Below, in pieces: positions 13,594 to 27,414 of a stretch of 64,000 nt of DNA (positions within the stretch are counted from its first letter, which is position 1; every line of letters begins with the position of its first letter). The stretch is from Comamonas halotolerans (GTDB lineage: Bacteria > Pseudomonadota > Gammaproteobacteria > Burkholderiales > Burkholderiaceae_C). The notes under the pieces are model-generated. The model was not told the origin of the DNA, ran no database searches, and saw only the letters and a list, made by a program, of their open reading frames with translations. The position numbers were made by a program, and so were the translations under genes. Location of the stretch: NCBI RefSeq assembly GCF_030162935.1, contig NZ_JASAUZ010000012.1:1-64000 (forward strand). The letters are read 5' to 3'.

Positions 13594-13616
13594 TTGGTGG
13601 CTGGGACGCTCTCGAA
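13594..13616 (-). repeat. Left attachment-like site, degenerate copy of the tRNA-Phe 3' end
   Basis: Minus-strand reading TTCGAGAGCGTCCCAGCC followed by ACCAA resembles the tRNA-Phe 3' end at 27338-27361. The two share TTCGA, CGTCCCAG and CCACCAA and differ by three substitutions and one deleted base. It is the expected position and orientation for the distal attachment site of an element inserted in tRNA-Phe. Because identity is imperfect, the exact crossover cannot be placed. Confidence 0.55.
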
Positions 13617-13668
13617 AAACACTCCCAAGCTGTTGATTTAAATACAAAAGCAATTTTTCAATTTTCTG

Positions 13669-13691
13669 AGTTGCCCCCAAAGTTGCCCCCA
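13669..13691. repeat. 23-bp terminal direct repeat, left copy (integrase arm-type site)
   Basis: Two tandem AGTTGCCCCC units separated by AA and ending in A. The same 23 bases recur exactly at 27193-27215 near the other end of the element. Exact direct repeats just inside both ends, next to the integrase gene, fit arm-type integrase binding sites. Confidence 0.65.
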
Positions 13692-13777
13692 GACTTTCCG
13701 GGCTTGCAACGCTTTCCTCAGGCTCCTCGGCGGCACTTCGCCCCTGTCAAGCGCTGATTCGTAAGCTCCAGCAATCA

Positions 13778-13806
13778 CACGTTGTCGACTCAGCCCCCAC
13801 AACGTG
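13778..13806 (+). promoter_or_regulatory. Perfect 8-bp inverted repeat, candidate Delta/Ogr-activated late promoter site
   Basis: The arms CACGTTGT and ACAACGTG flank a 13-base spacer, giving a TGT...ACA dyad. Ogr/Delta activators of P2 and P4 are known to bind TGT-N12-ACA dyads centred near -55 of late promoters. This one is centred near 13792, about 68 bases before the first gene of the putative capsid operon, and the same element encodes an Ogr/Delta-like protein. The spacing is one base longer than the classical site, so the link is an inference. Confidence 0.45.
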
Positions 13807-13859
13807 CAAAAAGAGACTAAAGGCGACCCCAGGCGCACCATGGAGACACATTAACTCCC

Positions 13860-14090
13860 ATGGAAAAAGCCATGACTGAAGCCCAAGCCCGCCAAGCCTT
13901 CGCTGCCGCGAAAGCTAACATCAAAACCGCTGCCATCGCCGCCACTGCGCAGGTGGAAGAAGCCACCCGTGAATTTGATCGCGCCAAGCAGGCCCTACAA
14001 GCCTTTGAAAACCATCGCGCCAGCAATGGCGGTGTAGTCACACATACAGCAACTGGCCATGCCCCAGACGTCCTGCTTGCCGACTTCTAA
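13860..14090 (+). CDS. Small coiled-coil protein of the satellite left operon
   Basis: A 76-residue protein rich in Ala, Glu, Lys and Gln, with a long predicted helix over residues 5-52 (ARQAFAAAKANIKTAAIAAT, then QVEEATREFDRAKQALQAF). I do not recognise a family. It is the first gene after the inverted repeat at 13778-13806 and ends 32 bases before the Sid-like gene, so it is probably in the putative late operon. An accessory to capsid-size redirection, or a reduced analogue of a P4 late protein such as Psu, is possible but unsupported. The start may be 13860 or the ATG four codons on at 13872, which has GGAAAAA before it. Confidence 0.55.
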   Translation: MEKAMTEAQARQAFAAAKANIKTAAIAATAQVEEATREFDRAKQALQAFENHRASNGGVVTHTATGHAPDVLLADF

Positions 14091-14122
14091 AAACCGCCCC
14101 TCACCGCAGCCCAAACATCACC

Positions 14123-14854
14123 ATGCCAACCATGTCCATCGACACAGCACAAGCCGAGTTTGATACCGCCCTGCAACGCTTTCGCGCAGCGCAGAATGCA
14201 TACCACCAAGCACAAGAAACCTTGCAGCGCCTGCAAGAGCGCAAAGCCGATTTGCAAGCAAAGGGGCAGCAATACGAGGCTGATGCTGAAGCCGCAGAAC
14301 AAGAATTCAAAGCGCTGTTTGCAAAACATGGGTTCACGACGACGCCTGAAGTCAAATCTGCCATGCACCAAAAAATGGCCAACAAAGACATGGCCACCGA
14401 GACTGCTTCAGCTCTTACCGAGTGCCAGCGTGCCATTGACGATTTGCCATTTCAGGACGATATCGCCAGCCTCGTGAACACCTACGCAGCAACACGTGCG
14501 GCTGTGCGTGAGAAATATGCAGCGTTGATGCTGGCACGTGCCTTGAGCGAAGTGCCCGAGAGCCTACTCAAAGCAATTGCTTTGCATCAGTACCTGGCAG
14601 GACTGAACGACATCGACTTCAAGGGTGCTGTTTTGCTACCGAGTGATCGCCAAACCACCATGGCCACAGCATTGCGCCCAATTTTTGAGGCAATGGAAGG
14701 AATGGCCCAGCGCGTGAATATCCACGGTGAATTGGAGGCCGCAGGCATCACCACCAGCACCGTCGATGTGCTTCCTGCCATTGCGCACAAAACACCCGCC
14801 CAGCGCCTCATGCATCAACAAAAGAACCTCTCTCCCCTGCACAGCCAGCGCTAA
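14123..14854 (+). CDS. Sid-like capsid-size-determination candidate (coiled-coil protein)
   Basis: A 243-residue, almost entirely helical protein. A heptad-rich N-terminal half (residues 5-65: AEFDTALQRFRAAQNAYHQA and on) is followed by a second helical region and a C-terminal segment ending with HKTPAQRLMHQQKNL. I recall P4 Sid as also about 244 residues, helical, and with a TPAQR-like motif near its C-terminus; these were compared from memory, not aligned. Sid forms an external scaffold that forces helper capsomers into a small T=4 shell. Position supports the call: it sits close to the Delta-like gene, as sid and delta do in P4. An unrelated phage scaffold-like or structural-assembly protein is the main alternative. 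Confidence 0.45.
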   Translation: MPTMSIDTAQAEFDTALQRFRAAQNAYHQAQETLQRLQERKADLQAKGQQYEADAEAAEQEFKALFAKHGFTTTPEVKSAMHQKMANKDMATETASALTECQRAIDDLPFQDDIASLVNTYAATRAAVREKYAALMLARALSEVPESLLKAIALHQYLAGLNDIDFKGAVLLPSDRQTTMATALRPIFEAMEGMAQRVNIHGELEAAGITTSTVDVLPAIAHKTPAQRLMHQQKNLSPLHSQR

Positions 14855-14944
14855 ATCAAGACTGATTAACTCCCCACTCTAAAACCGCGTGGTGGCATTA
14901 CAGCCAGAGCTGCTGCATTGCCACCCAACAGCCATCATTAATTC

Positions 14945-15181
14945 GTGAACACACCAACTCCCCCCATTAGCATTCACTGCGATGAGCAACTTTTGCGCAT
15001 TGGTGCTGTTTCTCAAAAGATTGGAATGGCACGCAGCACTATTTACAAAAGAATCCATAAAAACCAGTTTCCTCGCCCTTTGGTAATTAGCAAAAAATTA
15101 GTGGCGTGGAAAAAATCAGACATTGAAAATTGGATTAAATCCCTAGACCACCATGACAAAGAAGGTACAAGGCGTGTATAA
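14945..15181 (+). CDS. AlpA-family HTH regulator (copy 1)
   Basis: A 78-residue DNA-binding protein. It reads LLRIGAVSQKIGMARSTIYK (helix-turn-helix, residues 16-35), then HKNQFPRPLVISKKLVAWKK and SDIENWI, the standard AlpA/MerR-like layout in which FPRP and the Trp-rich wing are diagnostic. AlpA-type proteins (Vis in P4, AlpA in CP4-57) act as excisionase and/or transcription regulator of satellite integrase and late genes. The only available start is a GTG at 14945. Its last 29 bases overlap the start of the Delta-like gene at 15153, so the two are probably translationally coupled. Confidence 0.8.
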   Translation: MNTPTPPISIHCDEQLLRIGAVSQKIGMARSTIYKRIHKNQFPRPLVISKKLVAWKKSDIENWIKSLDHHDKEGTRRV

Positions 15182-15563
15182 ATTTGACTGTCCACATTGC
15201 GGGGAGCGGTGCAATATCCGCACAAGCCGCGCTCAATCAAAAATTACCCGAGAGCTGCACTTGCAGTGCCGAAATTTGGAGTGTGGACACACCTTTATTT
15301 GCCACTTAGTGGCCGTGAGAACCATTTCACCATCTGCCAAGCCCAATCCAGATATATATCTGCCTATTCTTGGCACCAAAAAAATCAAAGAACAGGTCTC
15401 TTTGAATAAAACGGATAGCCAGGCTTACTGCACCGCTGTAGAAATAACGGCGAAGGATCGCCGCCAGGCCAACACTCCAACGCCTCCCAAGGTGGCCAAC
15501 TTTGACATCCCTCAGCAAGACCCTATCTTGCAAGCTTTGCACAACCCTACAGCAAGCTCGTAA
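15153..15563 (+). CDS. Ogr/Delta-like zinc-finger late transcription activator
   Basis: A 136-residue protein whose first 55 residues form an Ogr/Delta zinc finger: FDCPHCGERCNIRTSRAQS, then LHLQCRNLECGHTFICHLVA. The four metal ligands C-x2-C...C-x4-C, the RTSR stretch and the final H-x-F are hallmarks of the family. Delta of P4 and Ogr of P2 bind dyads upstream of late promoters and recruit RNA polymerase through its alpha subunit, letting a satellite switch on its helper's late genes. The C-terminal 75 residues are low-complexity (TPTPPK) and extend beyond the 72-residue Ogr; I see no second finger. A candidate target dyad lies at 13778-13806. Family call is strong; helper transactivation is inferred. 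Confidence 0.82.
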   Translation: MTKKVQGVYKFDCPHCGERCNIRTSRAQSKITRELHLQCRNLECGHTFICHLVAVRTISPSAKPNPDIYLPILGTKKIKEQVSLNKTDSQAYCTAVEITAKDRRQANTPTPPKVANFDIPQQDPILQALHNPTASS

Positions 15564-15764
15564 GGTTCTGTAAGCCCAATCCGTTACATTAAGTAACATT
15601 CGGAAGCCTTAGTTAAGCCCGGAAACAGAATAACGGGAGCCATTGCCTGCTGGGGAACTTTGTTTTCAGTAATTAGCACAGCAGGGCGTGCATGGAGAAC
15701 ATGAATTTTCTAAGACAGTTTTAGTTCGTCATCAACCAATAAAAAACAGAGGGAATATCAGACT

Positions 15765-16324
15765 ATGGGCTTTTCATTTAAAAACCATTCAGAAAGAATA
15801 TTCTTTTTTTTGAAGATGGGTTAGAAAATTTAGAAATTGACTCTTTATTAGACAAAGAGATATTCATAAAATTCATTAAAACCAAAAAATCTCCCAAAGA
15901 TTTTTGTAAGACATTAGACAAATTAATTTCAGAATTAAAAAAACTCATTCCAACTGACAATGTGCAGTTGCTACTAAGAGTATTATTTTTATTGATCGAA
16001 ATTCATTCTTTCAAGCAAAATTCAAGAAATATTGTAGATTTACTTGACAATTTGGCATCTGATATTTTCACATCTCACATTGCAATCACAAAACGCACTG
16101 GCTCCAACCATTCCATTGCAAAAAAAGGAGCCATTGCCAGACACAAAGAAAACCACAAAATCAAAGCTGAAGTTTTCGAGTGGCTAGACAAAAACATGCA
16201 CACCTACAAGAGCATGGATGCCGCTGCAACCGCAATTGCAGGCAAAGAAGTTCCTATGGCATTCCGAACCGTGCGCCAATGGATCACGGAGTGGAAAAAA
16301 CTACGCGCTGCCAGCAAAGCGTAA
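15765..16324 (+). pseudogene. AT-rich satellite gene with frameshift at a T8 tract
   Basis: An ATG at 15765, preceded by a good GAGGGA ribosome site, opens MGFSFKNHSERIFFF and then stops 19 codons in. From the eight-T run (15804-15811) another frame continues without a stop to 16324: FEDGLENLEIDSLLDKEIF and so on, to a C-terminus with FRTVRQWITEWKKL that looks like a DNA-binding helix. One extra T, or two fewer, would join the two into a protein of about 186 residues. The downstream part alone could start at the GTG at 15962 (120 residues). The first 400 bases are far richer in A and T than the rest of the element, which suggests separate acquisition. I do not recognise the family. The cause may be true inactivation, slippage on the T run, or a sequencing error. 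Confidence 0.6.
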
Positions 16325-16401
16325 CGTCTGCCAGCACACAGGCTGGGCAGCGCGGCAACCGCCAACGACCATCGCTTCATTGTTCATTCAAAGAGGCTCA
16401 C

Positions 16402-16677
16402 ATGGCACCACACCCATCCATAACACAGCCAATGGTCAGCACACTCAGTGCTGCACAAGCGTTTGAAACACTCGCGGATAGCGCATACATCCGCGAACGT
16501 GATTTAGTCACCCAACCACACCGCAAAGGCACCGTGGGGCTATTGCCGTTCAGTGCCTCCACGTTGCGGCGCAAGGTCAGTGCTGGAGAGTTCCCCAAAC
16601 CTCAGAAGCTGGGGGTCAGAATTTCAGCCTGGAAGGTGGCTGATATTCGCGCCTGGATGGCGCAGCAGAAGGCTTGA
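16402..16677 (+). CDS. AlpA-family HTH regulator (copy 2)
   Basis: A 91-residue protein. Residues 48-88 show the AlpA pattern: LLPFSASTLRRKVSAGEFPK, then PQKLGVRISAWKVADIRAW. The N-terminal 45 residues (AQAFETLADSAYIRERDLVT) are an extension rather than part of the fold. The start at 16402 has AAAGAGG 8-12 bases upstream; a longer reading from 16180 in the same frame is rejected because it runs over the preceding gene without a ribosome site. It ends 13 bases before the third AlpA-like gene and points toward the replication operon. A role as repressor or excisionase is inferred from the family. Confidence 0.75.
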   Translation: MAPHPSITQPMVSTLSAAQAFETLADSAYIRERDLVTQPHRKGTVGLLPFSASTLRRKVSAGEFPKPQKLGVRISAWKVADIRAWMAQQKA

Positions 16678-16690
16678 GGGGGATACGTCA

Positions 16691-16993
16691 ATGACACCCA
16701 AGAAAAACGCCCCAGCCATCCCATCGGACAGCCAGAGCGCGGTAGCAGCGCCCATTTTAGTGACACCGCCGCAAGAGGCAAAAAGCCACCATCTGCCAGA
16801 TCGTTTGTTGCGCATCAGGGATGTGTGCTTTCTCACCGGGCTGGCACGCAGCACGGTATATGCCAAGGTCAAAAGCGACAGCTTTCCAGCCGCTGTGCAG
16901 CTGCATGGCAGCTGCGTAGCCTGGCGGCTCTCCGAGGTGCAAGCATGGATTGCCGCACGCCCTCTGGCCACTGAGAAAGAAGTCTATGCATAG
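16691..16993 (+). CDS. AlpA-family HTH regulator (copy 3)
   Basis: A 100-residue protein with a disordered, Pro/Ala-rich N-terminal 35 residues, then LLRIRDVCFLTGLARSTVYA (helix-turn-helix), DSFPAAVQLHGSCVAWRLSE and VQAWIAARP. This is the clearest Vis/AlpA-like sequence of the three. The start at 16691 lies 13 bases past the stop of copy 2, in the same transcription unit. In P4, Vis represses the late promoter and is needed for excision; whether this copy or copies 1 or 2 does so here cannot be told from sequence. Confidence 0.8.
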   Translation: MTPKKNAPAIPSDSQSAVAAPILVTPPQEAKSHHLPDRLLRIRDVCFLTGLARSTVYAKVKSDSFPAAVQLHGSCVAWRLSEVQAWIAARPLATEKEVYA

Positions 16994-17102
16994 CCCTCTC
17001 CAATCCCTCACAAAAGCCCAGAGTAAAAGCGCTCGTGTCCAATCTGGCCCCATTCCCTATTGCTTTGCAACGTGGCACAATTGCGGCAAGCCGAGAGGCC
17101 CG

Positions 17103-17310
17103 GTGCGTAGAAACACCACGTCTAAAGCGTTTGCAACCCCCATCGAAAAGCGGGGTTTTGTCATGTCCAATTTCTGGCGGCTGGTGCATTTGAATGCATC
17201 TATCCGATGGTTACGGGGCATGGTGGGGGCTATCCGTAAGGACGTCCGCACGGCTTTGGACGTGTTTCTAACCACCATGCTCCACCTTCTGCGCGTAGAA
17301 ACGCAAACGG
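17103..17310 (+). ncRNA. Candidate P4 CI-RNA-like immunity leader (complementary repeats)
   Basis: Between the AlpA genes and the replication genes lie 349 bases without a convincing gene. Segment A (17103-17134) contains TAGAAACACCACGTCTAAAG. Segment B (17252-17271) is its near reverse complement, CTTTGGACGTGTTTCTA, with a three-base bulge and one mismatch. Segment C (near 17295-17304) repeats TAGAAACGC. So B could pair with either A or C. In P4, seqB inside the CI RNA pairs with seqA and seqC flanking it in the leader of the alpha operon and causes early transcription termination. Position and A-B-C order match. It could also be chance, or coding sequence for an N-terminal extension of the next gene, since that frame is open. 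Confidence 0.4.
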
Positions 17311-17342
17311 TGGTTTTCTTGAATCCCAAAGGAGCCAAGACC

Positions 17343-17549
17343 ATGACCGCTATCACCCAGCAGGCCAGCCGCGCCGCTGCATCTCAGCCCACCACGGGCA
17401 CCCTTGCTTCTACCCAAATCAGCGCTGTATTGGCCGCATTTAATGCCGCCAACCTAGCCAGCAGCTACATCGAGCGCGGCAACTTTGCCGCTGCCCGCCG
17501 CAAGCTGGTGCAAGCACTGGCATCCGTCAACCAACTGGCGGAGGGTTAA
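17343..17549 (+). CDS. Small satellite protein upstream of the primase, unknown function
   Basis: A 68-residue protein (MTAITQQASRAAASQPTTG, ending NLASSYIERGNFAAARRKLV). The C-terminal half resembles a short helical hairpin (SYIERGNFAAARRKL). I do not recognise a family with confidence; P4-like elements have small genes here. The start at 17343 is fixed by an excellent AAGGAG nine bases upstream. The same frame stays open to 16950, so a longer protein including FWRLVHLNASIRWLRGMVG from the ATG at 17163 is possible. The next gene begins three bases after the stop. Confidence 0.6.
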   Translation: MTAITQQASRAAASQPTTGTLASTQISAVLAAFNAANLASSYIERGNFAAARRKLVQALASVNQLAEG

Positions 17550-17552
17550 ACC

Positions 17553-17873
17553 ATGACTAACCATCACAACACTGCCCACACGGCAGTGCAGGCGGAGCAT
17601 TGCCCACAGCCAGCTCAAACAAGAGATAACCCTCTGCGCCATTGTTTGTTTGAGGCCAGCGACATGGCTGCGCGGGTGCGTTGCGGCAATCAGGCCATCT
17701 TTGCTTTGGCCCATTTTGTTGAGGTGGCCGCAAGCCTTAATGCAGCCCCAGAGCAAGAGTTGGCAGAGCTGATTTTGCTGCTGGGCGAAGCGATGGACAG
17801 GCGTGCCACGGTGCTGGCCGAAACCATTGATGCAGGGCTACAGATTTGGCGCGAGAAAGGCGGTGCGGCATGA
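17553..17873 (+). CDS. Small satellite protein coupled to the primase-helicase, unknown function
   Basis: A 106-residue, mostly helical, acidic-to-neutral protein (MAARVRCGNQAIFALAHFVE, then AELILLLGEAMDRRA). No family recognised. It lies three bases after the previous gene, and its stop overlaps the start of the primase-helicase as ATGA (17870-17873), so the three genes form one operon. Position suggests a replication or regulatory accessory, but nothing in the sequence proves it. Confidence 0.7.
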   Translation: MTNHHNTAHTAVQAEHCPQPAQTRDNPLRHCLFEASDMAARVRCGNQAIFALAHFVEVAASLNAAPEQELAELILLLGEAMDRRATVLAETIDAGLQIWREKGGAA

Positions 17874-20653
17874 CTGAGCTACTGCATGAAATCTCCCAGC
17901 GCTTGCAAGCCGACTATGCGTTTCAACTCACCACGGACGGTAAGTATTTGCGCAAAGGTTGCTGCCCCAATTGCAGCAGCAAGAGCCTGTGGACGTATGC
18001 CGCATCACCGTGGGTGGTGCGCTGTGAACGGCTCAACCATTGCGGCTATGAGGCCCATGCCAAGGACTTGTACAGCGACTTGTTTGAAAGCTGGAGCGAC
18101 CGCGCTCGTGCGGTGGAAGAGTGCAAGCCCGAGTCAGAGCGCAACCCGAATGCGGCTGCAGATGCCTATTTGCAGCAGGCCCGGGGCTTTGAGTTGGCGC
18201 GTATTCGTGGCCTGTACACCCAGGAGCAATACTTTGACCCACGCGCCGACCGCGGGCATGGTGCGGCCACAGCCACGGTGCGCTTTGCGGTGGCGGATAC
18301 CTGGTGGGAGCGGCTGATTGATCGACCTGCACGCTTTGGCAAAAAGAAGGCCAATTTCAAATACGGTGGCAGCTATGGTGGCCACTGGTGGTGCATGCCT
18401 GGTCTGAGCTTTGCCGCCCCCAACCCCGCGCAACCAGATGCCCCGCAGCCCCCCGATGAGCTGTGGCTGGTAGAGGGCATTTTTGATGCCATCGCCTTGG
18501 CACACCATGGCATTGCAGCGGTGGCCTTGATGAGCTGCAACAACTATCCGGCCCTGGCGCTGGAGGCCGTGCGGGCGCAGATCCAGCGTGAGGGTAAGCA
18601 GGTCAAAGAGCCACGCTTGGTTTTTGCGCTGGACAGCGATAAAGCGGGCCGAGCGTACACGCAACGGCATGTGCGCCGGGCACAGGCCGATGGCTGGCGG
18701 TGCAGCGCTGCGCAAATTCCGCAGCCAAGCGGTGCAGGCAAGCTGGACTGGAACGATCTGCACTTGCGAGACCGGCTCACCGACAAGGATCTCAAAGAGT
18801 ACCGCCACCAAGGTGCCTTGCTGGTGGCTGAATCGGCCATGGATAAGGCACTGCTGATCTACCACCACACTGCAAGTACAGAGTTCCATTTAGACCATGG
18901 GAGCCGGTTGTATTGGTTCAAGCTGGACTTGACCGCATACAGCAAAGCCAAAGACGATTTGGAAAAAGGGCAAGAGGAAGGCGACAAATATTTGTCAGAG
19001 CGTGAGCTGCGCGATAAAGCCATTCAGCAATCCGCCGTGCTGCAACCCATTGCCAACTGCCTGCCAAAGGCGCTGTACTACCTGCGCAATGAAATCACGA
19101 AAGAAGCCTGGTATTACTTCAGCATTGCCTTGCCGCACGAAAGCGCCCCCGTCAAAGGCACGTTCATGGCTGGCCAGCTGACATCTGCCAGTGAGTTCAA
19201 AAAGCAATTGCTGCACCTGGTGCCCGGAGCCATGTACAGCGGCTCCAGCTTTCAACTGGAGCGCATGCTGCAACGGCAGTTAGAGCAAATCAAGGTGGTG
19301 CAAACGGTGGATTTTCTGGGCTACAGCGCCGAGCATCAAACCTATTTGCTGGGGGACTATGCGGTGCATGACGGCCATGTGCTGCAAGCCAATGAGGAGG
19401 ATTATTTTGAGCGGGGCAAACTCAGCATCAAAAGCTTGCAGCGCTCTATCGTGCTGCACATCAACCCAGATGCTCAAGCCCAAGACAAAAGCTGGCCACA
19501 GCACCTGTGGACTGCGTTTGGCGCACCGGGTTATGTGGCCCTGGCCTACTGGTTTGCCAGCCTGTTTGCCGAGCAGGTTCGCAGTGAACAAAGCTCTTTT
19601 CCATTCCTGGAGATTGTGGGTGAACCTGGTAGCGGCAAGACCACGCTGATTCAGTTTTTATGGAAGCTGTTTGGGCGTGACTATGAGGGTTTTGACCCGA
19701 GCAAATCCACCGCCGCCGGGCGCATGCGCACCTTCACACAGGTGAGCAACTTGCCGATTGTGTTGATTGAAAGCGACCGCGAGATCAAGACAGGCAACAG
19801 CGCCCATGTGCGCAGCTTTGATTGGGATGAACTCAAGGACGCCTACAACGGAGGCAGCGTGCGCACCACCGGCGTGCGCACGGGTGGCAATGAAACCTAT
19901 GAACCACCGTTCAGGGCCACCATCGTCATCAGCCAGAACAACCCCGTGCAGGCCAGCCAGGCCATCATGGAGCGCATCTGCCACATGACATTCACCACCC
20001 ATGGCCACACGCCGCAAAGCTTTGCCAGCGCCCGCAAACTGGAGACCTATGAGATGGAACATCTCAGCGGTTTCCTGCTGGCCTGCCTGCGCGTGGAGGC
20101 AGAGGTGGTAAACACGTTCAACACCCAGACAGACCAGGTCATGGCCTGGTTGCTGGAGCAAGATGAAATCCAAAAACCGCGCATCGCCAAGAACCATGCA
20201 CAGCTGCTGGTGGCGGTGATGGCCTTGAGCAAATTGGTACCTATGAGCGATGCACAGTTCAATGCAGTGCGCGCACAGATTGTGGCCATGGCCCAAGAGC
20301 GTCAACGTGCCATCAGTGCTGACCATCCATTGGTACAGGAGTTCTGGGAGGCATTTGATTTTCTGGACAGCATGCCCAAGCCCACAGCACACGGCCCGGT
20401 CAGCGCTCCACGGCTCAATCACAGCCGCGACAAGAGCCTGATTGCCGTGAACCTGAATGAGTTTGTGGAGATGGCTAGCGAACACCGCCAGCAGGTGCCG
20501 CCTTTGATAGAGCTAAAGAAGGTGCTGCGCACCAGCAAAACACGCCGCTTTGTGGATGCCGCCCGTGTGGTCAAAAGCGCTATCAAGACCAACAGTGCAG
20601 GCGACGAGGTGGGCAAGTCGGTGCGCTGCTGGGTGTTTGAGGTGGGAGGCTAA
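17870..20653 (+). CDS. Satellite DNA primase-helicase, P4 alpha-like
   Basis: A 927-residue replication protein. Domains in order: an N-terminal zinc ribbon (C32, C35, C52, C58); a Toprim-type primase with catalytic E202 (VEGIFDA) and D255/D257 (ALDSDKAG); a linker of about 250 residues; and a P-loop helicase with Walker A GEPGSGKT at 584-591, followed by the IVLIESDRE Walker B-like strand. P4 alpha has the same primase-helicase order and also binds its origin repeats through its C-terminus. The C-terminal 200 residues here may do this, and a repeat array lies 165 bases downstream. The ATG at 17870 overlaps the previous stop; the earlier ATG at 17846 is rejected. A terminator follows at 20688. 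Confidence 0.88.
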   Translation: MTELLHEISQRLQADYAFQLTTDGKYLRKGCCPNCSSKSLWTYAASPWVVRCERLNHCGYEAHAKDLYSDLFESWSDRARAVEECKPESERNPNAAADAYLQQARGFELARIRGLYTQEQYFDPRADRGHGAATATVRFAVADTWWERLIDRPARFGKKKANFKYGGSYGGHWWCMPGLSFAAPNPAQPDAPQPPDELWLVEGIFDAIALAHHGIAAVALMSCNNYPALALEAVRAQIQREGKQVKEPRLVFALDSDKAGRAYTQRHVRRAQADGWRCSAAQIPQPSGAGKLDWNDLHLRDRLTDKDLKEYRHQGALLVAESAMDKALLIYHHTASTEFHLDHGSRLYWFKLDLTAYSKAKDDLEKGQEEGDKYLSERELRDKAIQQSAVLQPIANCLPKALYYLRNEITKEAWYYFSIALPHESAPVKGTFMAGQLTSASEFKKQLLHLVPGAMYSGSSFQLERMLQRQLEQIKVVQTVDFLGYSAEHQTYLLGDYAVHDGHVLQANEEDYFERGKLSIKSLQRSIVLHINPDAQAQDKSWPQHLWTAFGAPGYVALAYWFASLFAEQVRSEQSSFPFLEIVGEPGSGKTTLIQFLWKLFGRDYEGFDPSKSTAAGRMRTFTQVSNLPIVLIESDREIKTGNSAHVRSFDWDELKDAYNGGSVRTTGVRTGGNETYEPPFRATIVISQNNPVQASQAIMERICHMTFTTHGHTPQSFASARKLETYEMEHLSGFLLACLRVEAEVVNTFNTQTDQVMAWLLEQDEIQKPRIAKNHAQLLVAVMALSKLVPMSDAQFNAVRAQIVAMAQERQRAISADHPLVQEFWEAFDFLDSMPKPTAHGPVSAPRLNHSRDKSLIAVNLNEFVEMASEHRQQVPPLIELKKVLRTSKTRRFVDAARVVKSAIKTNSAGDEVGKSVRCWVFEVGG

Positions 20654-20687
20654 CTAGCGCCCTTGTCCAGCACTTTGCCCCCAACAG

Positions 20688-20710
20688 AGCCCCGGAAACG
20701 GGGCTTTTTT
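20688..20710 (+). terminator. Rho-independent terminator of the replication operon
   Basis: AGCCCCG and CGGGGCT pair around a four-base GAAA loop and are followed by six Ts, 35 bases after the primase-helicase stop. Transcription of the operon should end here, before the repeat array. Confidence 0.8.
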
Positions 20711-20817
20711 CATGTCGCCCCACTTTGATGAATAAATAAGCATTCCAATGAAAACCAAGGGATTACCCTTATCAAAATTCGCCGTCGCCAAAATTCCGGT
20801 GGGGGGTCGGGAAAAGC

Positions 20818-21087
20818 GTAACTTCCGTAACCTTAGTAATCACTTACCTTGTAAGCCTTATGCAGCAATGCTTTCAAGAAATGAGTTTTGTAACCTTTTC
20901 TGTAACCTGAGCGTAACCTGGATACAAAAAATAAAGTAACCTTCTCAAAATAAGAAATTCAATAAAAACAATGGGTTATGAGAGTGGTGTAACCCAGGTT
21001 ACGCTGGGTTACAGAAACTTGTAACCTGTGAAACCCAATATCCATGCGGGTTTGCGGGCGGTTTAGAGGGCAGGTTACGGAGGTTAC
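20818..21087. repeat. GTAACC/GGTTAC iteron array, candidate satellite replication origin
   Basis: Eleven exact copies of GTAACC or its complement GGTTAC occur in 261 bases, starting at 20827, 20890, 20902, 20913, 20936, 20989, 20997, 21007, 21021, 21073 and 21082, plus a partial copy (GTAACT) at 20818. The first six face one way, then orientation alternates. The interval is AT-rich and holds no credible gene; the 63-codon reading at 20748 is built from the repeats. In P4, alpha recognises clustered short iterons at ori and crr beside its own gene, so this is the likely origin. The 500 bases between 20711 and 21220 contain nothing else I can name. Confidence 0.6.
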
Positions 21088-21220
21088 ACTTTTCCCAGCC
21101 CCCCTACCTATTTTTTCCCCCAAGCGGTTGGTGAGCCTGAGTGTGGCGTGGTCCCAGCTGGACGCTTGCGGGTAGCCCAATCAAGCACCGGACTTCATTG
21201 CTAACCCCCAACATGCCGCC

Positions 21221-21334
21221 ATGCTCACTACCACCAACATCATTATTTTTTGCATTGCGCTTTTCCTGGCGCTTGGCATATGCGGGCTGATTTACTCAAT
21301 GATCTGGACGGTTTGCAGAGCAATTTTTAAGTAA
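21221..21334 (+). CDS. Possible 37-residue single-pass membrane peptide
   Basis: The reading frame MLTTTNIIIFCIALFLALGI, then CGLIYSMIWTVCRAIFK and a stop encodes one clean membrane helix of about 23 residues with a basic end. It lies between the iteron array and the ATPase gene and has no strong ribosome site. Small membrane peptides accompany some defence and toxin modules. The hydrophobic pattern is better than expected by chance, but no homology is recognised. Confidence 0.35.
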   Translation: MLTTTNIIIFCIALFLALGICGLIYSMIWTVCRAIFK

Positions 21335-21588
21335 GCGAGGGTAGGCACACTTGCGGAGATCTGTGTAACGTGTTTAACCGGTCTAAAGGCAGGGCAGAAA
21401 AAATCCTACCGTTTGTGTTTCTTCCATTGGTGACTTCTTTTCAGCGAATGCTGCCGTCTACCTTTTCGACACCGAACTACCACAATCGATAGAAGTAGTC
21501 CGCCGCTAGCGTCTGCTGGTATCCAGGCTAACCCTCATGACATCGTCATGAAAATCTTTTTGCAGAGTTAAAAGAAAGGCAGGAGGGA

Positions 21589-24228
21589 ATGCGAATAATT
21601 CAAAAAATAGCAGCGTGGGCAGCCGAGCAGCCCGCGTGGATTGATGATGCTGTACGACGGCTGACAATGGGTGCCCTAACGCCGCAGGATATTCGGGATC
21701 TGGCTTCCCTAGCAGAGGCCGAACATGGTTTGCCTGATCCAGAAAACCGTGTTCCCGAGAGACTGGATCCAAGGACGCTTCCGGAACTTGGTAAGAATGA
21801 CGTAGACGTTAGCTTGCTGGCACTCCGTGAGCCAACGCAACTGAACGCAATCGATACCAAACAGACGCTGGCATTCCAAGCGGATGGTTTGACCGTTGTG
21901 TACGGGCACAACGGCGCGGGCAAGTCCGGCTACGCGCGAGCCTTGAAGATGGCTTGCAGGGCACGTAATGTCGAAAACATCCTCCCAGACGTGTATGACG
22001 CGTCAAAGACCTTCCTTACACCTAGTGCGGTCTTCGACTGGCGAGAAGGCACGACCTCACAGTCGCAACAATGGAGCGCTGGCAGCATTGCACCAGCACC
22101 TCTTTCGCGAATCTCTGTCTTCGACGCCCACTGCGCCCGCATCTTTGTAGATAGCCAGGCGAAGGTACTCTTTGTTCCAGATGGAATGGAGGTTATCCAC
22201 GGTCTGTCCGAACTCTTGGGTGCCGTGCAGCGACAGATTGAAGCCGACAAAAAGGGGAACGCGTTCGACGTCGGTCAGTTATCTTCGCTAGCTGGAGCTA
22301 CTGTTGTCGGGCGTGCCATAGCCCAACTCAATCGCAAAAGCGACGGGGAGGTGTTCAAGAGACTGGCAGTACTTTCCAAAGACGAGGAGACGGAACGGCA
22401 AGTGCTGACCAAGCTCTTCAGGGAAGAAGACCCAGCGAAATTGGCGGCCACAATCCGTCGATATGCGACTCGACTAGCAACGTTGCGTAATGAACTGGTG
22501 ACCCTCGAAGCGCCTCTCTTGGACAAGATTACCAGCCAATTGCGCGAAGCTTTCGTTGTTATGGTCGCCGCTGAGGAGGCTTCGAAGCTTGCTGCGAATT
22601 CGCTTAAGGCCGAGGGAGTCACGATTGCCGGCACAGGTACGGAGCCCTGGGAAATTTTGCTTCGTAGTGCGATGAAATATGCGGCCGAGGTCGCGTATCC
22701 TGGCTATGCCTTTCCTGGTCCTGACCAGGGCAGTCATTGTGTCGTCTGTCAGCAACCGCTGAGTGAGGAGGCTGAAGGCCGGTTGAAGTCATTTGTCCAG
22801 TTTCTCGAAGCCGATACGCAAAAGAAGGCCAGTCAGGCTAGGGAGACCGCCAAGAAACTGTTCGTGGGAATTAAGTCGATTAAGTTTGACGCGTTCCCAA
22901 CCGACCAAGCACTCATCGAAGAAATCAACGAAAGTGAGCCAACCTTTGTCACAGCCATTCGCGAATACTTAATGTCGCTCCAAGAGCGTCAGAAAAGCAT
23001 TATTGCCATGGCGCCAAACAAGAAGCTTGACCCTTTAGACCCGTTGCCAGAATCTCCGGTCACTAAATTGGGGGAGCTGATAGACAAACAACTCGCGGAG
23101 GCAGCCCGCATTGAGAAGACGCTGACGCCAGAAGAGCGTGAACACAAGACCAAGGTACTCGCAGACTTAGAGGCAAGGGTCAAGCTCAGTGAATTGCTAC
23201 CCAAAGTGCTGGAAGCCATCGAATGGTACAAGCGTGATTACGCGTTCGGAGAAGCCATCAAGGCGTGTAATACACGGGCTGTCACTAGTAAGACAAGCGA
23301 ACTTTACGAAGCGCATGTGACTGAGGAGCTGCGAACGACGTTTGTACGGGAGCTCTCCAGTCTTGGCCTCAGTAAGTTGGACGTCATACTTGAGATGTCC
23401 GGGCAAAAGGGCGCTCGTATGCAGCAACTTAAGCTTCGGACAATGCCCCAGTACGCTCGTGCGAAGGTGTCGGACATCCTAAGTGAGGGCGAGCAGCGAG
23501 TCATCGCTATGGCGCTGTTCTTGGCAGAGGTCAGCATAGAGCCGGGACAGTCGGGGCTCATTTTTGATGACCCAGTGTCCTCGTTGGATCACGTACGTCG
23601 CGAGAAGATTGCAAAGCGTCTTGTTTTGGAAGCAAAGAAGCGCCAGATCATCGTATTCACGCACGATCTAGCCTTTGCGTGGGCACTCAAAGACATTGCC
23701 AAAGATTGTGGCGTCGCTGCGGAGGATCGTCACATATTCTCCGCAGCCGAGAGGAAGGGAATTTGCAGCAATGAGCTTCCATTTGAAGGTAAAAAACTGA
23801 ACGCACGAATAAACGACCTTCGAACCCTCGCTCAACGTGCGCGGAAAGTCCTAGAAGATGAGCACAATCATGAGGAATACAACGACATCGTACGCAACGG
23901 CTATCGGAGAATGCGTGATACGTGGGAGCTCCTCATCGAGGAGCACCTGTTCGCGGGCACCGTCAAACGCTTTAGGCGTGGCATCGAAACATCCAAACTT
24001 CGATACGTTTCCGTCAACGACGCTGAGGCAAGTTCCGTCTACAACGGAATGACACGCTGCTCCAACTTCACGCACGAAGGAGGCGCAGAGGCTCCACCAA
24101 CGCTACCTGAACCAGATGAATTCCTCGCTGATATTGAAGCTTTAGCAACTGCCTTGACGATGATTGATGGCAATAAGAAGGTGACGGAGAAGAGGCGAAT
24201 GGATGCTGGTTTAGCAACCCAGGCATAG
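21589..24228 (+). CDS. Rad50-like AAA_13 ATPase, RloC/PrrC-like candidate defence protein
   Basis: An 879-residue ABC/SMC-type ATPase. It has Walker A GHNGAGKS (106-113), a long helical middle with C384-V-V-C387 that could form a zinc hook, the ABC signature LSEGEQR (631-637), Walker B LIFDDP (657-662) with SSLDH, and the switch THDL. A C-terminal domain of about 150 residues follows, with R776-x3-E780 and H829 (RDTWE...SNFTHEGG). This resembles the PrrC/RloC anticodon-nuclease plan, where an R-x3-E...H triad cleaves tRNA after phage attack; the E-to-H distance here (49) is longer than in PrrC. Other SMC-like defence ATPases (PtuA, AriA) are alternatives. It stands alone between origin and integrase, the usual cargo slot of P4-like satellites, and its base composition differs from its neighbours. 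The start has GAAAGG nine bases upstream. Confidence 0.75.
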   Translation: MRIIQKIAAWAAEQPAWIDDAVRRLTMGALTPQDIRDLASLAEAEHGLPDPENRVPERLDPRTLPELGKNDVDVSLLALREPTQLNAIDTKQTLAFQADGLTVVYGHNGAGKSGYARALKMACRARNVENILPDVYDASKTFLTPSAVFDWREGTTSQSQQWSAGSIAPAPLSRISVFDAHCARIFVDSQAKVLFVPDGMEVIHGLSELLGAVQRQIEADKKGNAFDVGQLSSLAGATVVGRAIAQLNRKSDGEVFKRLAVLSKDEETERQVLTKLFREEDPAKLAATIRRYATRLATLRNELVTLEAPLLDKITSQLREAFVVMVAAEEASKLAANSLKAEGVTIAGTGTEPWEILLRSAMKYAAEVAYPGYAFPGPDQGSHCVVCQQPLSEEAEGRLKSFVQFLEADTQKKASQARETAKKLFVGIKSIKFDAFPTDQALIEEINESEPTFVTAIREYLMSLQERQKSIIAMAPNKKLDPLDPLPESPVTKLGELIDKQLAEAARIEKTLTPEEREHKTKVLADLEARVKLSELLPKVLEAIEWYKRDYAFGEAIKACNTRAVTSKTSELYEAHVTEELRTTFVRELSSLGLSKLDVILEMSGQKGARMQQLKLRTMPQYARAKVSDILSEGEQRVIAMALFLAEVSIEPGQSGLIFDDPVSSLDHVRREKIAKRLVLEAKKRQIIVFTHDLAFAWALKDIAKDCGVAAEDRHIFSAAERKGICSNELPFEGKKLNARINDLRTLAQRARKVLEDEHNHEEYNDIVRNGYRRMRDTWELLIEEHLFAGTVKRFRRGIETSKLRYVSVNDAEASSVYNGMTRCSNFTHEGGAEAPPTLPEPDEFLADIEALATALTMIDGNKKVTEKRRMDAGLATQA

Positions 24229-24687
24229 ATCTTCGCCAGCGCTACGCGCTTACAGACTTAAGGTTGCCGCAAAGTGCTGCCGATGAGGAGCCAAGCGACT
24301 TCGAGTTCAGGTGTGGCAGTGAACGCTTGCAGGTTCAACCAAAAGGCATTTCAAGGTCTGCATGAAGTCGAACGCTTTTTATTGTTGGTTAGACCGCATT
24401 CAGCCTGAATGCACAAGACCAGAAGTTGAGCCTGAACGCTCCACGCCCTACCTGCAAAATATCTCGTAATTTCCCGTAATTTTGTTGGAGACTGAATCTG
24501 ACAGCTGCGTCAAGCCTAGAGCCATTCTCACGTCGCCGACCTGTACGTAATTTTCGCCCTATGAAGCGGGCAGGCGCGGTGGGGGCGATGTGGCGCGCTG
24601 AGGGGTCTAGGCAAGGTGCTCTGACAAGGGGTTGATCGAGGCAACTCAGGGGCAATCACACCCCCACAACAGCGGTAGGTATGCCGA
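24229..24687. other. Gene-free interval in the satellite cargo region
   Basis: About 460 bases between the ATPase and the toxin gene. No reading frame has a plausible start with protein-like composition; an 88-codon minus-strand frame looks random. Three copies of CGTAATTT occur, two of them in tandem (near 24463-24482) and one near 24545. It may hold the terminators of both converging genes or the scar of a lost cargo gene. Confidence 0.4.
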
Positions 24688-25104
24688 TCAGATTTGCTTG
24701 AAGCGACCTGATGTGCTCCATGGCACCTCTAAGGCCACACGCTCAGTCTCTAAGGCTTGGTCGACGATACGTGGCCACCAATGCACTAGCTGGGCTGACA
24801 TGGCCCAATACTGCTGACTGGCCCAAGATTTCTGAAGCACAAATACGGATAGGCCATATTGCCGCTGCACTTGCCGTTCCGCACCGTTTTGCTTGCGGAA
24901 ACCGTCTTTAGAAATGATGGCCCAGCGAGTACCACGCTCATTCCCAAGCGCCTCCATCCATTCAAGATCAGGCGTGTTTGCAGAGAACTTGCTTGTGAGG
25001 TGAACGATCTGCCCAACCTGGGCAGCCGTGTATCTTGGGAGAGTAAGTGCAGCTACAGCAGCCGCCAAGGCAGGCGGCATGTTTGCATCAAACAGAAAGT
25101 TCAA
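24688..25104 (-). CDS. PIN-like (DUF5615/VapC45-type) toxin ribonuclease
   Basis: A 138-residue protein that opens with MNFLFDANMPPALAAAVAAL, the DANMP/L start of the PIN-like DUF5615 fold with its first metal-binding Asp (D7). WAIISKDGFRKQ supplies a second acidic strand. Proteins of this type are the toxin halves of pairs whose partner is a DUF433 protein, and they are predicted metal-dependent RNases. Its start overlaps the stop of the upstream gene (25101-25104, ATGA), so toxin and antitoxin are coupled, with the antitoxin translated first. The target RNA is unknown. Confidence 0.75.
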   Translation of the reverse strand: MNFLFDANMPPALAAAVAALTLPRYTAAQVGQIVHLTSKFSANTPDLEWMEALGNERGTRWAIISKDGFRKQNGAERQVQRQYGLSVFVLQKSWASQQYWAMSAQLVHWWPRIVDQALETERVALEVPWSTSGRFKQI

Positions 25105-25832
25105 TGGAAAGGCCGCTTGAGGCTTTCCTCAAAGCGGATTGCAGCCTCAACATGCTTTGCCGAGGCGTCATAAAGCCGGGCTGTAAACGCAAGTGCTTGC
25201 GGATCAGCACCCTCGGCCAGATAAGTCTGGTAAAGCGCCTTGGTGGGCGTACCTGTTGCCTCAAGAATAGGTGCCCCAAACTGCCGCGCAGGGTCAATCA
25301 CTACAGGAGATTTCTTGCTTCCCGCAGGGTACCAACGGCTGGCCTGGAGCTCTTGGTCATCGTAAACAATGCCTTCGTAGAGTGAAGGCTTGATGATCTC
25401 TTTAAACACGGCTTGGCGGTTCTTAAGATCCACCAGCGAGTTTTCTTGCGCCGCCTCATGCAACGCTTCACCATAGATCGTTCGCCCATCCGTTTTAAAT
25501 CTAGGTAAAGACATAGGGTGCGTTACCCCATACAGTTCTGAAGCTGTGTTTAGGCACCGGCGGATGACCTGCAATGGCACACCATGCTTGATGAATTCTC
25601 GGATAAAGCGCAACTCAATCAAGTCACGAAAGCCGATCACGTCCTCGTCGAAACCACCCTGTGCCAACTCATGCTCCCACAAAGGAGGAACATCAACGCG
25701 TGACTCAGCATCGCCAGGCGTCTTGCGGTAGTGATAACCCAAGAGCCAGCGACGAATATCCTTGCCGGGCACGCAGATGAGCCGCGATGCCTCGGGGATA
25801 GAGTAAATGCCGGTTCCGCTGTAGTTGTACAT
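25101..25832 (-). CDS. DUF433-family antitoxin with N-terminal HTH (VapB45-like)
   Basis: A 243-residue protein. The N-terminus GIYSIPEASRLICVPGKDIR is a MerR-like helix-turn-helix, expected to bind and repress its own promoter. The C-terminal third, VVIDPARQFGAPILEATGTP to HVEAAIRFEESL, has the DUF433 pattern found in antitoxins of PIN-like toxins. It precedes the toxin gene with a 4-base overlap. The pair probably stabilises the element or acts as abortive-infection cargo; neither is shown by the sequence itself. Confidence 0.75.
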   Translation of the reverse strand: MYNYSGTGIYSIPEASRLICVPGKDIRRWLLGYHYRKTPGDAESRVDVPPLWEHELAQGGFDEDVIGFRDLIELRFIREFIKHGVPLQVIRRCLNTASELYGVTHPMSLPRFKTDGRTIYGEALHEAAQENSLVDLKNRQAVFKEIIKPSLYEGIVYDDQELQASRWYPAGSKKSPVVIDPARQFGAPILEATGTPTKALYQTYLAEGADPQALAFTARLYDASAKHVEAAIRFEESLKRPFH

Positions 25833-25900
25833 GGTGATGCACAGTGTACTAAACCCGTCCGAAAGCAGCTAAACGCCGCATCAATTTGCAGACGTAGCAG

Positions 25901-27154
25901 CTACTTGCCAGGGGCATTGCGTAGCGTATCCAAATAGTCCGCCCACTGCTGCATCATCTGCACACGCTCTTCCATGAATTCCGTGCGGTTGTACGCCCTG
26001 CCCAAGCTGTCACGTACTGAATGCGCAAGCTGGGCTTCCACCACCGATTCAGCGATCCCCAGGCGCTCCACAATCATCGTGCGTGCCGTGGCTCTGAACC
26101 CATGCGCAGTGACCTCATCTGCCGCAAAGCCCAGCACCCGCAATGCAGCATTGATGGCGGCATCACTCATTGGCCGCTGTGCGCTACGTTCACCGCGAAA
26201 CACAAACGGGCTGTGCACGGTCAAAGGCTTGAGCTCCTCGAAGATGGCCACGGCCTGCGTGGCCAGCGGCACGATGTGCGGCTTGCCATAAACTTTGCCC
26301 ACCTTCTCACGCTTCATGCGGGCGGCTGGAACCGTCCAAGTGGCGGCAGACAGATCCAGCTCATCCCATTGCGCCTGCCGCAACTCACCGGGTCGCAAAA
26401 GCATCATTGGCATCAACCGCAGCGCAGCACACACAACCGGCGTGCCCCGATAGCCATCAATCGCACGAAGCAACTCTCCAAGCCGCTTTGGGTCTGTAAT
26501 GGCCGCGAAATGCTGCACCAATGGTCTGCGCAAAGCATCTTTCAAATCCCGCGCTGGATTGCTCTCAATGCGTCCCGTGGCCACCGCAAAGCGAAACACC
26601 TGGCCACACGTTTCCAACACACGATGCGCCGTTTCTACTGCCCCACGGTTTTCGGCCCGCCGCAGCACATCCAGCACCATCGGCGGCGTAATTTGCTCTA
26701 CAGGCAGCTTGCCCAGCCATGGAAAAACATCGACCTCCAAGCGGCGAAAAATCTTGTTCGCATAGCTCAGTGCCCACTCATCCTTGCGAGTGTCAAACCA
26801 TTCACGCGCCACCAACTCAAAGCTGCCCTGTGTAGGCAACCCTTGGGCTTCACGCTGGGCTTGCTCATCCTGATAAGCAGCCTCCTGCTTGGATGCCTTG
26901 CGTGCTTCGCTGGGGTCTATGCCCTGGGCAATAAGAGCCCTCGCCTCTTCAGTTTTCTCCCTGGCCGCTTTCAATGAGGTTTCAGGGTAGGTGCCCAAAG
27001 AGATGCGCTTTTCAACGCCAGCAATACGGTACTTCAACCGCCACCATCGCCCTCCAGCTGGCGACAACTCCAAATACAAGCCTTTCCCATCGGAAAGCTT
27101 GCGGGCTTTTGGGCCAGGTACGGCCTTGCGAATTGCGGTGTCTGTCAGAGGCAT
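25901..27154 (-). CDS. int: P4-family tyrosine integrase
   Basis: Site-specific recombinase of 417 residues from the ATG at 27154. It has the N-terminal DUF4102 arm-binding domain (LTDTAIRKAVPGPKARKLSD, then GLYLEL), a core-binding SAM-like domain, and a catalytic domain. Numbered from the TTG three codons further upstream, the tetrad is R257 (LRPGELRQ), H354-x2-R357 (HGFRATAR), H381 and nucleophile Y391. The gene reads away from tRNA-Phe, its 5' end 185 bases from the tRNA 3' end, so this tRNA is its attachment site. Four TTGCCCCC-type repeats (27156-27215) cover its promoter region, suggesting that integrase binding also controls its own expression. Confidence 0.93.
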   Translation of the reverse strand: MPLTDTAIRKAVPGPKARKLSDGKGLYLELSPAGGRWWRLKYRIAGVEKRISLGTYPETSLKAAREKTEEARALIAQGIDPSEARKASKQEAAYQDEQAQREAQGLPTQGSFELVAREWFDTRKDEWALSYANKIFRRLEVDVFPWLGKLPVEQITPPMVLDVLRRAENRGAVETAHRVLETCGQVFRFAVATGRIESNPARDLKDALRRPLVQHFAAITDPKRLGELLRAIDGYRGTPVVCAALRLMPMMLLRPGELRQAQWDELDLSAATWTVPAARMKREKVGKVYGKPHIVPLATQAVAIFEELKPLTVHSPFVFRGERSAQRPMSDAAINAALRVLGFAADEVTAHGFRATARTMIVERLGIAESVVEAQLAHSVRDSLGRAYNRTEFMEERVQMMQQWADYLDTLRNAPGK

Positions 27155-27192
27155 TGGGGGCAACTTTTCCTATCAGTTGCCCCTAATTTAGC

Positions 27193-27215
27193 AGTTGCCC
27201 CCAAAGTTGCCCCCA
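27193..27215. repeat. 23-bp terminal direct repeat, right copy (integrase arm-type site)
   Basis: Exact duplicate of 13669-13691. Two further single units lie between it and the integrase start: GTTGCCCCT near 27176 and an inverted copy (GGGGGCAACT) at 27156-27165 touching the start codon. Confidence 0.65.
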
Positions 27216-27260
27216 CAAGTGCGTGGCTTGAGGTGGACACCTATAGACACCACGGACAAC

Positions 27261-27300
27261 AAAAAAGCCCCAAGTCGTTGATTTACTTGGGGCTTTTGTT
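27261..27300 (-). terminator. Rho-independent terminator now serving tRNA-Phe
   Basis: AAGCCCCAAGT and ACTTGGGGCTT (one T within a loop region) form an 11-bp stem followed by TTTTTT on the minus strand. It is about 40-75 bases past the tRNA 3' end, inside the element. It appears to be supplied by the satellite in place of the old terminator at 13555-13589. Confidence 0.75.
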
Positions 27301-27338
27301 TCGTCTTAGACGCCTGTGGACGTCTGCGGACAGTATCT

Positions 27339-27414
27339 TGGTGGCCTGGGACGGGATCGAACCGCCGACACGCGGATTTTCAATCCGCTGCTCTACCAAC
27401 TGAGCTACCGGGCC
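27339..27414 (-). tRNA. tRNA-Phe(GAA), integration target with acceptor mismatch
   Basis: A 76-base cloverleaf including encoded CCA. Anticodon GAA sits in loop TTGAAAA on stem GCGGA/TCCGC; the D-stem is GCTC/GAGC and the T-arm is GGCGG-TTCGATC-CCGTC with one G-U pair. The acceptor 5' strand GGCCCGG faces 3' strand CCAGGCC, leaving a C5-A68 mismatch while all other pairs are good. The 3' part was probably delivered by the satellite. If it is the only tRNA-Phe gene in the genome it must work despite this; the window cannot tell. Confidence 0.95.

Follow-up and report, generated by a model that had tools for sequence, protein, structure and literature searches.

What is an 879-residue, Rad50-like ATPase doing between the primase and the integrase of a phage satellite? 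The gene lies at 21589-24228 on the plus strand of a 64,000-nucleotide stretch of Comamonas halotolerans DNA (assembly GCF_030162935.1, contig NZ_JASAUZ010000012.1, positions 1 to 64,000), hereafter the window, to which positions refer unless another locus is named. A preliminary description of this stretch had proposed a single-gene anti-phage system of RloC-like architecture that may cut tRNA. The follow-up analysis points in much the same direction: the product is probably an ABC-HEPN ribonuclease of the RloC type, one of a long subgroup, and serves a P4-like satellite as anti-phage cargo. That the effector is a ribonuclease is very likely; that it is aimed at anticodons is a step less secure, though still favoured. 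The support comes from a full-length match to PADLOC PDC-S06, the sequence definition of RloC, the invariant residues R776, E780, R794 and H829, the HEPN layout of the predicted C-terminal domain, and occurrence as a single gene on mobile elements. The confidences placed in this reading and in the three rivals weighed below overlap, and their total is not one.

The protein is built as a Rad50/SMC-type ATPase whose two parts are separated by a helical insert bearing an invariant CxxC; a small helical domain at the C-terminal end carries an invariant R-x3-E...H. Re-reading the sequence recovered the open reading frame (ORF), with an ATG start, and every motif that the preliminary description had named, each where it had been placed. 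These are, with the residues invariant in 58 of 58 family members in brackets, the Walker A motif GHNGAGKS at residues 106-113 (21904-21927; G106, N108, G111, K112), the CVVC zinc-hook motif at 384-387, the sole CxxC of the protein (22738-22749; C384, C387), the ABC signature LSEGEQR at 631-637 (23479-23499; S632, E635), the Walker B motif LIFDDP at 657-662 (23557-23574; D660, D661, P662), whose acidic residues are D660 and D661 and whose DDP spans 660-662, and, in the C-terminal domain, the predicted catalytic residues R776-x3-E780 (23914-23928) and H829 (24073-24075). The linchpin His of the ATPase, H692, is likewise invariant in all 58, and Pfam AAA_13 matches the protein with 56.5 bits against a cut-off of 36. 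A further arginine that the preliminary description did not list, R794 (23968-23970), is nearly invariant, being present in 36 of 38 genome and plasmid rows and in 20 of 20 rows from IMG/VR. Ahead of the ATPase lies a helical N-terminal domain, residues 1-80 (21589-21828), with conserved W10 and W17 and no Pfam match. Upstream of the ATG, an AGGAGG at 21581-21586 resembles a Shine-Dalgarno sequence at an unusually close spacing of 2 nucleotides.

Family assignment rests first on PADLOC. The PDC-S06 model PDLC04891 matches residues 1-859 over model positions 1-853 of 858 (637.7 bits, E 9.1e-192), and PDLC04893 is also matched over its full length. PDC-S06 lumps long models (843-862 positions) with short ones (693-790), and it is the long ones that the window protein fits from end to end; its hits have been treated as identical to systems otherwise named by DefenseFinder (PMC11811056). 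Davidov and Kaufmann defined RloC by the motifs of an ABC ATPase, an insert with a CX2C hook, the pattern Arg-X3-Glu-X36-52-His and a length of 658-897 residues (PMC2610378). All four features are found here, with a spacer of x48 and a length of 879 residues, so that by its sequence the protein meets the published definition and the proposed RloC-like architecture stands. RloC and the window protein thus share an ABC ATPase interrupted by an insert with a CxxC hook, the C-terminal R-x3-E...H, rare linkage to restriction-modification and the size range. GkaRloC of Geobacillus kaustophilus has anticodon nuclease activity that its ATPase turns on in the presence of linear DNA (PMC2610378, PMC3874168), and AbaRloC of Acinetobacter baylyi, of 826 residues, cuts tRNA and is activated by an inducer of DNA breaks (PMC3874168); by analogy, the mode of action of the window protein would be the same.

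Other known systems fit less well. PrrC also pairs an ABC ATPase with a C-terminal domain that bears R-x3-E...H, but at 341-416 residues it is about half the size and lacks the hook insert, whereas the window protein has 879 residues and a CxxC insert, and membership in PrrC was rejected on these grounds. Its E-to-H distance is 32 (E324 to H356; PMC2610378), against 49 here, and it is linked to type I restriction-modification (PMC3874168), unlike RloC, which rarely has such linkage. The PADLOC PrrC model reaches only E 0.0024, its best stretch being residues 658-697. Lamassu LmuB and Rad50/SbcC share the SMC/Rad50-type ATPase with its coiled coil; the LmuB model scores 39 bits against 638 for PDC-S06, and neighbour clustering gave no partner gene common to the family loci, LmuA and LmuC not having been sought by model. 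Searches of solved structures by phmmer and by profile returned ATPases only (Rad50, SMC, RecF, AriA and ABC proteins), with no entry named RloC or PrrC, and NCBIfam gave only ABC, RecF or Rad50-type models, all under their cut-offs, among the 25 of 37 matches shown.

Do the three predicted catalytic residues mean anything? In one sequence they mean little, because 36% of 20,000 shuffled versions of residues 728-879 also show R-x3-E-x36-52-H, and any significance of the triad from the single sequence was rejected on that count. Homologues were therefore gathered, from plasmid records, genomes and IMG/VR contigs, to test its invariance. From 43 family matches, 38 rows were kept after dropping a duplicate of the window gene (L005) and four fragments; of 36 IMG/VR loci, 20 near full length were used, 7 that were broken or cut were left out, and 9 went to an outgroup. 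Weaker ATPase matches lacking the CxxC were excluded. The resulting set of 58 near-full-length members comprises the window protein, 37 homologues from genomes and plasmids and 20 from IMG/VR, with a median pairwise identity of 25% (range 18-93%). Across it 21 columns are invariant, and they include all five residues that the preliminary description had singled out for alignment: C384, C387, R776, E780 and H829 are present in 38 of 38 genome and plasmid rows, the window protein among them, and in 20 of 20 from IMG/VR. Within the C-terminal domain, an alignment of 25 members leaves R776, E780, R794 and H829 as the only invariant columns, the pattern that would be expected of an active site. In a 17-member outgroup, from which L113-L115 were left out, having the same score and length as L112, the R, E and H align in 16 members, the remaining row having no such domain in the alignment. 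Four of the 17 (L111, L057, L017 and L055) are loosely related, with spacers of 66-80. Three of these, L111 (its positions 150-2756), L057 and L017, are CxxC ATPases with a C-terminal R-x3-E...x79-80...TH and are possibly another ABC-HEPN group, judging by this pattern; the best models for L111 are LmuB.

Structure prediction bears on the same domain. The full AlphaFold2 model has a mean predicted local distance difference test score (pLDDT) of 82.7 and a predicted template modelling score (pTM) of 0.57, and places long helices on both sides of the hook, at 282-310, 312-340 and 352-369 before it and 393-429 after. Modelled alone, the C-terminal domain reaches a pLDDT of 91.2. In the full model it is a HEPN-like four-helix domain over residues 735-872 (23791-24204), with helices at 737-757, 761-787, 811-828 and 842-872 and a short one at 801-806. 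E780 falls within the second helix and H829 immediately past the third long one, and the HEPN layout puts an acidic residue in helix 2 and has helix 3 end in the catalytic His (PMC3710099). The predicted bundle follows this layout, which is suggestive and compatible with a HEPN domain rather than proof of one.

Several results weigh against an RloC-type HEPN ribonuclease. In Foldseek the HEPN protein 2hsb ranks first with probability 0.91, at an E of 0.22 that is not significant, and three further rows titled HEPN among the top seven have E 0.22 or worse (7bxo we take to be a HEPN toxin). In a second fold comparison unrelated helical bundles reached a Z of 9.9 at best, whereas no HEPN protein scored above 7.7, and a viral structure library gave no useful match for the fold (best E 0.23). 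With hhalign, the domain scores a probability of 0.1% against PrrC, on which a profile link to PrrC was rejected; against a shorter RloC-like group the R, E and H come into register, but weakly (probability 4%, P 0.009). The HEPN motif Rx4-6H can be read here as R823-x5-H829, but at that position R stands in 15 of 38 rows and K in another 15. A tblastn search of 50,697 phage records gave no match to the gene. In a Pseudomonas survey, the presence of RloC was correlated with phage susceptibility and not with resistance (PMC12447246), and among the matches listed in the RloC literature no activity assay of any long-subgroup member was found.

Could the HEPN domain cut something other than the anticodon loop? 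An effector of the same architecture and defensive role, acting on mRNA, rRNA or another part of tRNA, would account for a C-terminal domain so far diverged that its profile no longer matches PrrC, and the HEPN ribonucleases RNase LS and LsoA do cut mRNA (PMC3710099). The R-x3-E-x(36-52)-H spacing and the hook, however, are those of RloC, and both studied RloCs cut tRNA at the anticodon (PMC2610378, PMC3874168), which makes another RNA target rather unlikely, if the best placed of the rivals. Much less probable is a Rad50-like protein of DNA repair or tethering, whose C-terminal domain would be a structural or nucleotide-binding bundle and no nuclease. The whole model does match the heads of Rad50, SMC and Lamassu LmuB best among solved structures, and a helical bundle on its own is a common fold; yet the four polar residues are the only positions of that domain invariant in 25 members, and both the patchy distribution of the gene (17 of 397 other genomes) and its location on plasmids and prophages speak for a different role.

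Within the RloC-type family, the window protein belongs to a group that can be told apart. Against a profile of the first 38 rows, the 20 IMG/VR members reach 589-1007 bits, while the next group, mostly shorter CxxC ATPases of AAA_13 or LmuB type, reaches at most 82 bits. The N-terminal domain, diagnostic of the long subgroup, is present in 37 of 38 aligned rows, the exception (L004) starting at a contig edge, and in none of 17 shorter relatives. A search for it across 398 genomes of the phylum gave matches in 18, and these are exactly the genomes with a long-type copy, whole or in fragments. Of its 19 matches, 16 lie in frames of 866-943 residues, two in broken long-type copies (473 and 668 residues) and one in an unassigned 74-residue frame of genome G461; these searches scored few candidates per genome (2, or up to 13), so that the domain in other proteins could be missed. 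The E-to-H spacer is x48-52 and the distance from CxxC to R776 380-398 in all 58 long members, whereas GkaRloC (C288/C291, R692, E696, H737; PMC2610378) has x40 and 404; compared in this way by published residue numbers, GkaRloC lies outside the long subgroup. In a tree of the ATPase C-lobe (46 rows, none of them PrrC), the long group falls on one side of a branch with a Shimodaira-Hasegawa-like approximate likelihood ratio test (SH-aLRT) support of 55, which is compatible with a single origin, weakly supported.

The preliminary description had suspected a separate subfamily from the E-to-H distance, 49 against 32 in PrrC. That argument fails, because x48 lies inside RloC's own range of x36-52 (PMC2610378) and PrrC is the wrong yardstick, and the spacing was rejected as a subfamily mark; the long subgroup itself is real, by its N-terminal domain and the score gap. 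Might it be a functionally distinct ABC-HEPN immune class, in which the N-terminal domain senses a phage signal other than a DNA break and the diverged HEPN domain with R794 cuts a different RNA site? This is possible but doubtful. To judge from the size and spacer ranges given in 2008, the 72 RloC genes then listed appear to have included long members.

Where else does the gene occur? Matches were found in 271 plasmid records, in 166 of which they extend over at least 80% of the query, and 17 of 397 other genomes of the phylum hold a full or fragmented long-type copy, a patchy distribution. In IMG/VR, a single-sequence scan found none, and a scan with the alignment found the 36 loci. Neighbour clustering places four of the 20 IMG/VR copies in prophages between tail-completion and baseplate genes, which we take to be P2 genes S and V; three were checked by PHROGs. 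In one of these three (L096), a DNA methyltransferase gene at 6948-7754 adjoins the long-type gene, a possible restriction-modification link. An oligonucleotide-cyclase (CBASS-type) gene (L034, 13163-14002) lies 2.5 kb from the Massilia homologue, so that this copy has another defence gene nearby. A Piscirickettsia plasmid (L081, 4956-5294) carries a stand-alone ORF of 112 residues that matches residues 772-859 only, part of the HEPN-like domain with no ATPase; its neighbours are an IS6 transposase on one side and a VapC pair on the other, and it may be a remnant.

No conserved partner gene emerged from these loci: no neighbour within 6 kb is common to more than 5 of 35, the most widely shared being a recombinase and a phage gene at 5 loci each. 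The long-type gene therefore fits a single-gene system, as had been proposed, one that occurs on plasmids, in prophages and in the satellite. The accompanying claim that no partner gene is adjacent needs qualifying, for while none is shared across loci, a pair encoding HTH_66 and PIN_10 proteins (24688-25832, minus strand) lies 459 bp downstream on the opposite strand. That the effector acts with this pair as one multi-gene system is the least probable of the rivals, for although the satellite has it between its RloC-type gene and its integrase, the pair lies on the opposite strand, its proteins match no PADLOC model, and no neighbour within that distance recurs in more than 5 of the 35 loci.

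The satellite itself spans about 13.7 kb (13594-27338) beside a tRNA-Phe gene (27339-27414, minus strand, by tRNA call), its probable integration target. Its genes run in the order Psu-like, AlpA, Ogr/Delta, AlpA, primase, RloC-type gene, HTH_66/PIN_10 pair, integrase. On the plus strand lie a Psu-like polarity suppression/capsid protein (14123-14854; PHROG 6165 over residues 8-232, E 3.8e-7, no Pfam match), an AlpA-type regulator (14945-15181; PF05930, E 1.5e-16), an Ogr/Delta zinc finger activator (15153-15563; PF04606, E 1.2e-14), a second AlpA-type regulator (16553-16993; PF05930, E 3.3e-15) and a 935-residue DNA primase (17846-20653; PHROG 1139, 1106.6 bits). On the minus strand follow the PIN_10 (PIN-like) protein of 138 residues (24688-25104; PF18478, E 4.6e-17), the HTH_66 protein of 243 residues (25101-25832; PF21321, E 1.4e-5) and the tyrosine integrase (25901-27163; Pfam Phage_int_M, Arm-DNA-bind_3 and Phage_integrase). 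The HTH_66 and PIN_10 genes overlap by 4 nucleotides and, by their domains, probably form a toxin-antitoxin pair, with PIN_10 the probable toxin and HTH_66 the probable antitoxin or regulator; neither protein matches any PADLOC model. With psu, delta, alpA, primase and integrase genes identified, the element is by gene content a P4-like satellite, in agreement with the preliminary description. The left boundary is approximate because no clean attachment (att) repeat was found, the sole candidate being an imperfect copy of about 15 nucleotides of the tRNA-Phe 3' end, seen by eye near 13594-13608. A 38-nucleotide direct repeat (84%) at 13669-13706 and 27193-27230, with tandem AGTTGCCCCCA units, lies near both ends; these are possibly integrase arm sites.

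Is the gene in a cargo slot, as the preliminary description had it? It does seem to lie in a variable slot, but one between primase and int, unlike that of E. coli P4, which is between psu and int (PMC9122126). Two sister satellites of the same genus have psu, alpA, ogr, primase (in one of them a stretch of 537 residues) and int, but the interval from primase to integrase is filled differently: L148 (13099-18349) has an integrase-like gene and two transposases there, and L149 (13134-18835) a Rha regulator, an 805-residue DUF4238 protein and a SocA/Panacea antitoxin. The interval therefore looks like a variable cargo slot from its gene content. A third sister element (L150) is cut off by its contig end and has an integrase beside psu, and neither shows nor excludes the slot. 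Psu-like genes occur in 9 of 100 related genomes, this one included, three of the others at 47-48% identity and five at 24-29%. The rpoC of this genome is 69% identical to its E. coli counterpart over 89% of a 1.5 kb query, which suggests a host other than an enterobacterium. A survey of P4 elements speaks of Enterobacterales, and neither 'Burkholder' nor 'Betaproteobacteria' appears in the accessible part of its text (PMC8628076).

How would such a protein act? By analogy with RloC, protomers would sit on DNA ends or on phage-altered DNA, joined through zinc at the CxxC hook. Binding and hydrolysis of ATP would release the C-terminal HEPN domain, whose R776, E780 and H829 would then cleave RNA without a metal, most likely in tRNA anticodon loops. 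Translation would stop, and with it phage growth, as in abortive infection. The whole chain, from DNA signal through ATP-driven release and HEPN cleavage to the stop in translation, is proposed because of the likeness to RloC, and it describes a DNA-triggered RloC-type HEPN ribonuclease that probably cuts tRNA.

The kind is already known, and the window protein would be another RloC, of the long version. In the literature covered, two members have been studied biochemically, GkaRloC and AbaRloC. Members of the long subgroup are carried by plasmids, by prophages and, in this case, by a P4-like satellite. They offer a single-gene system for which active-site and hook residues have been predicted, and the N-terminal domain peculiar to them is a candidate sensor of the trigger.

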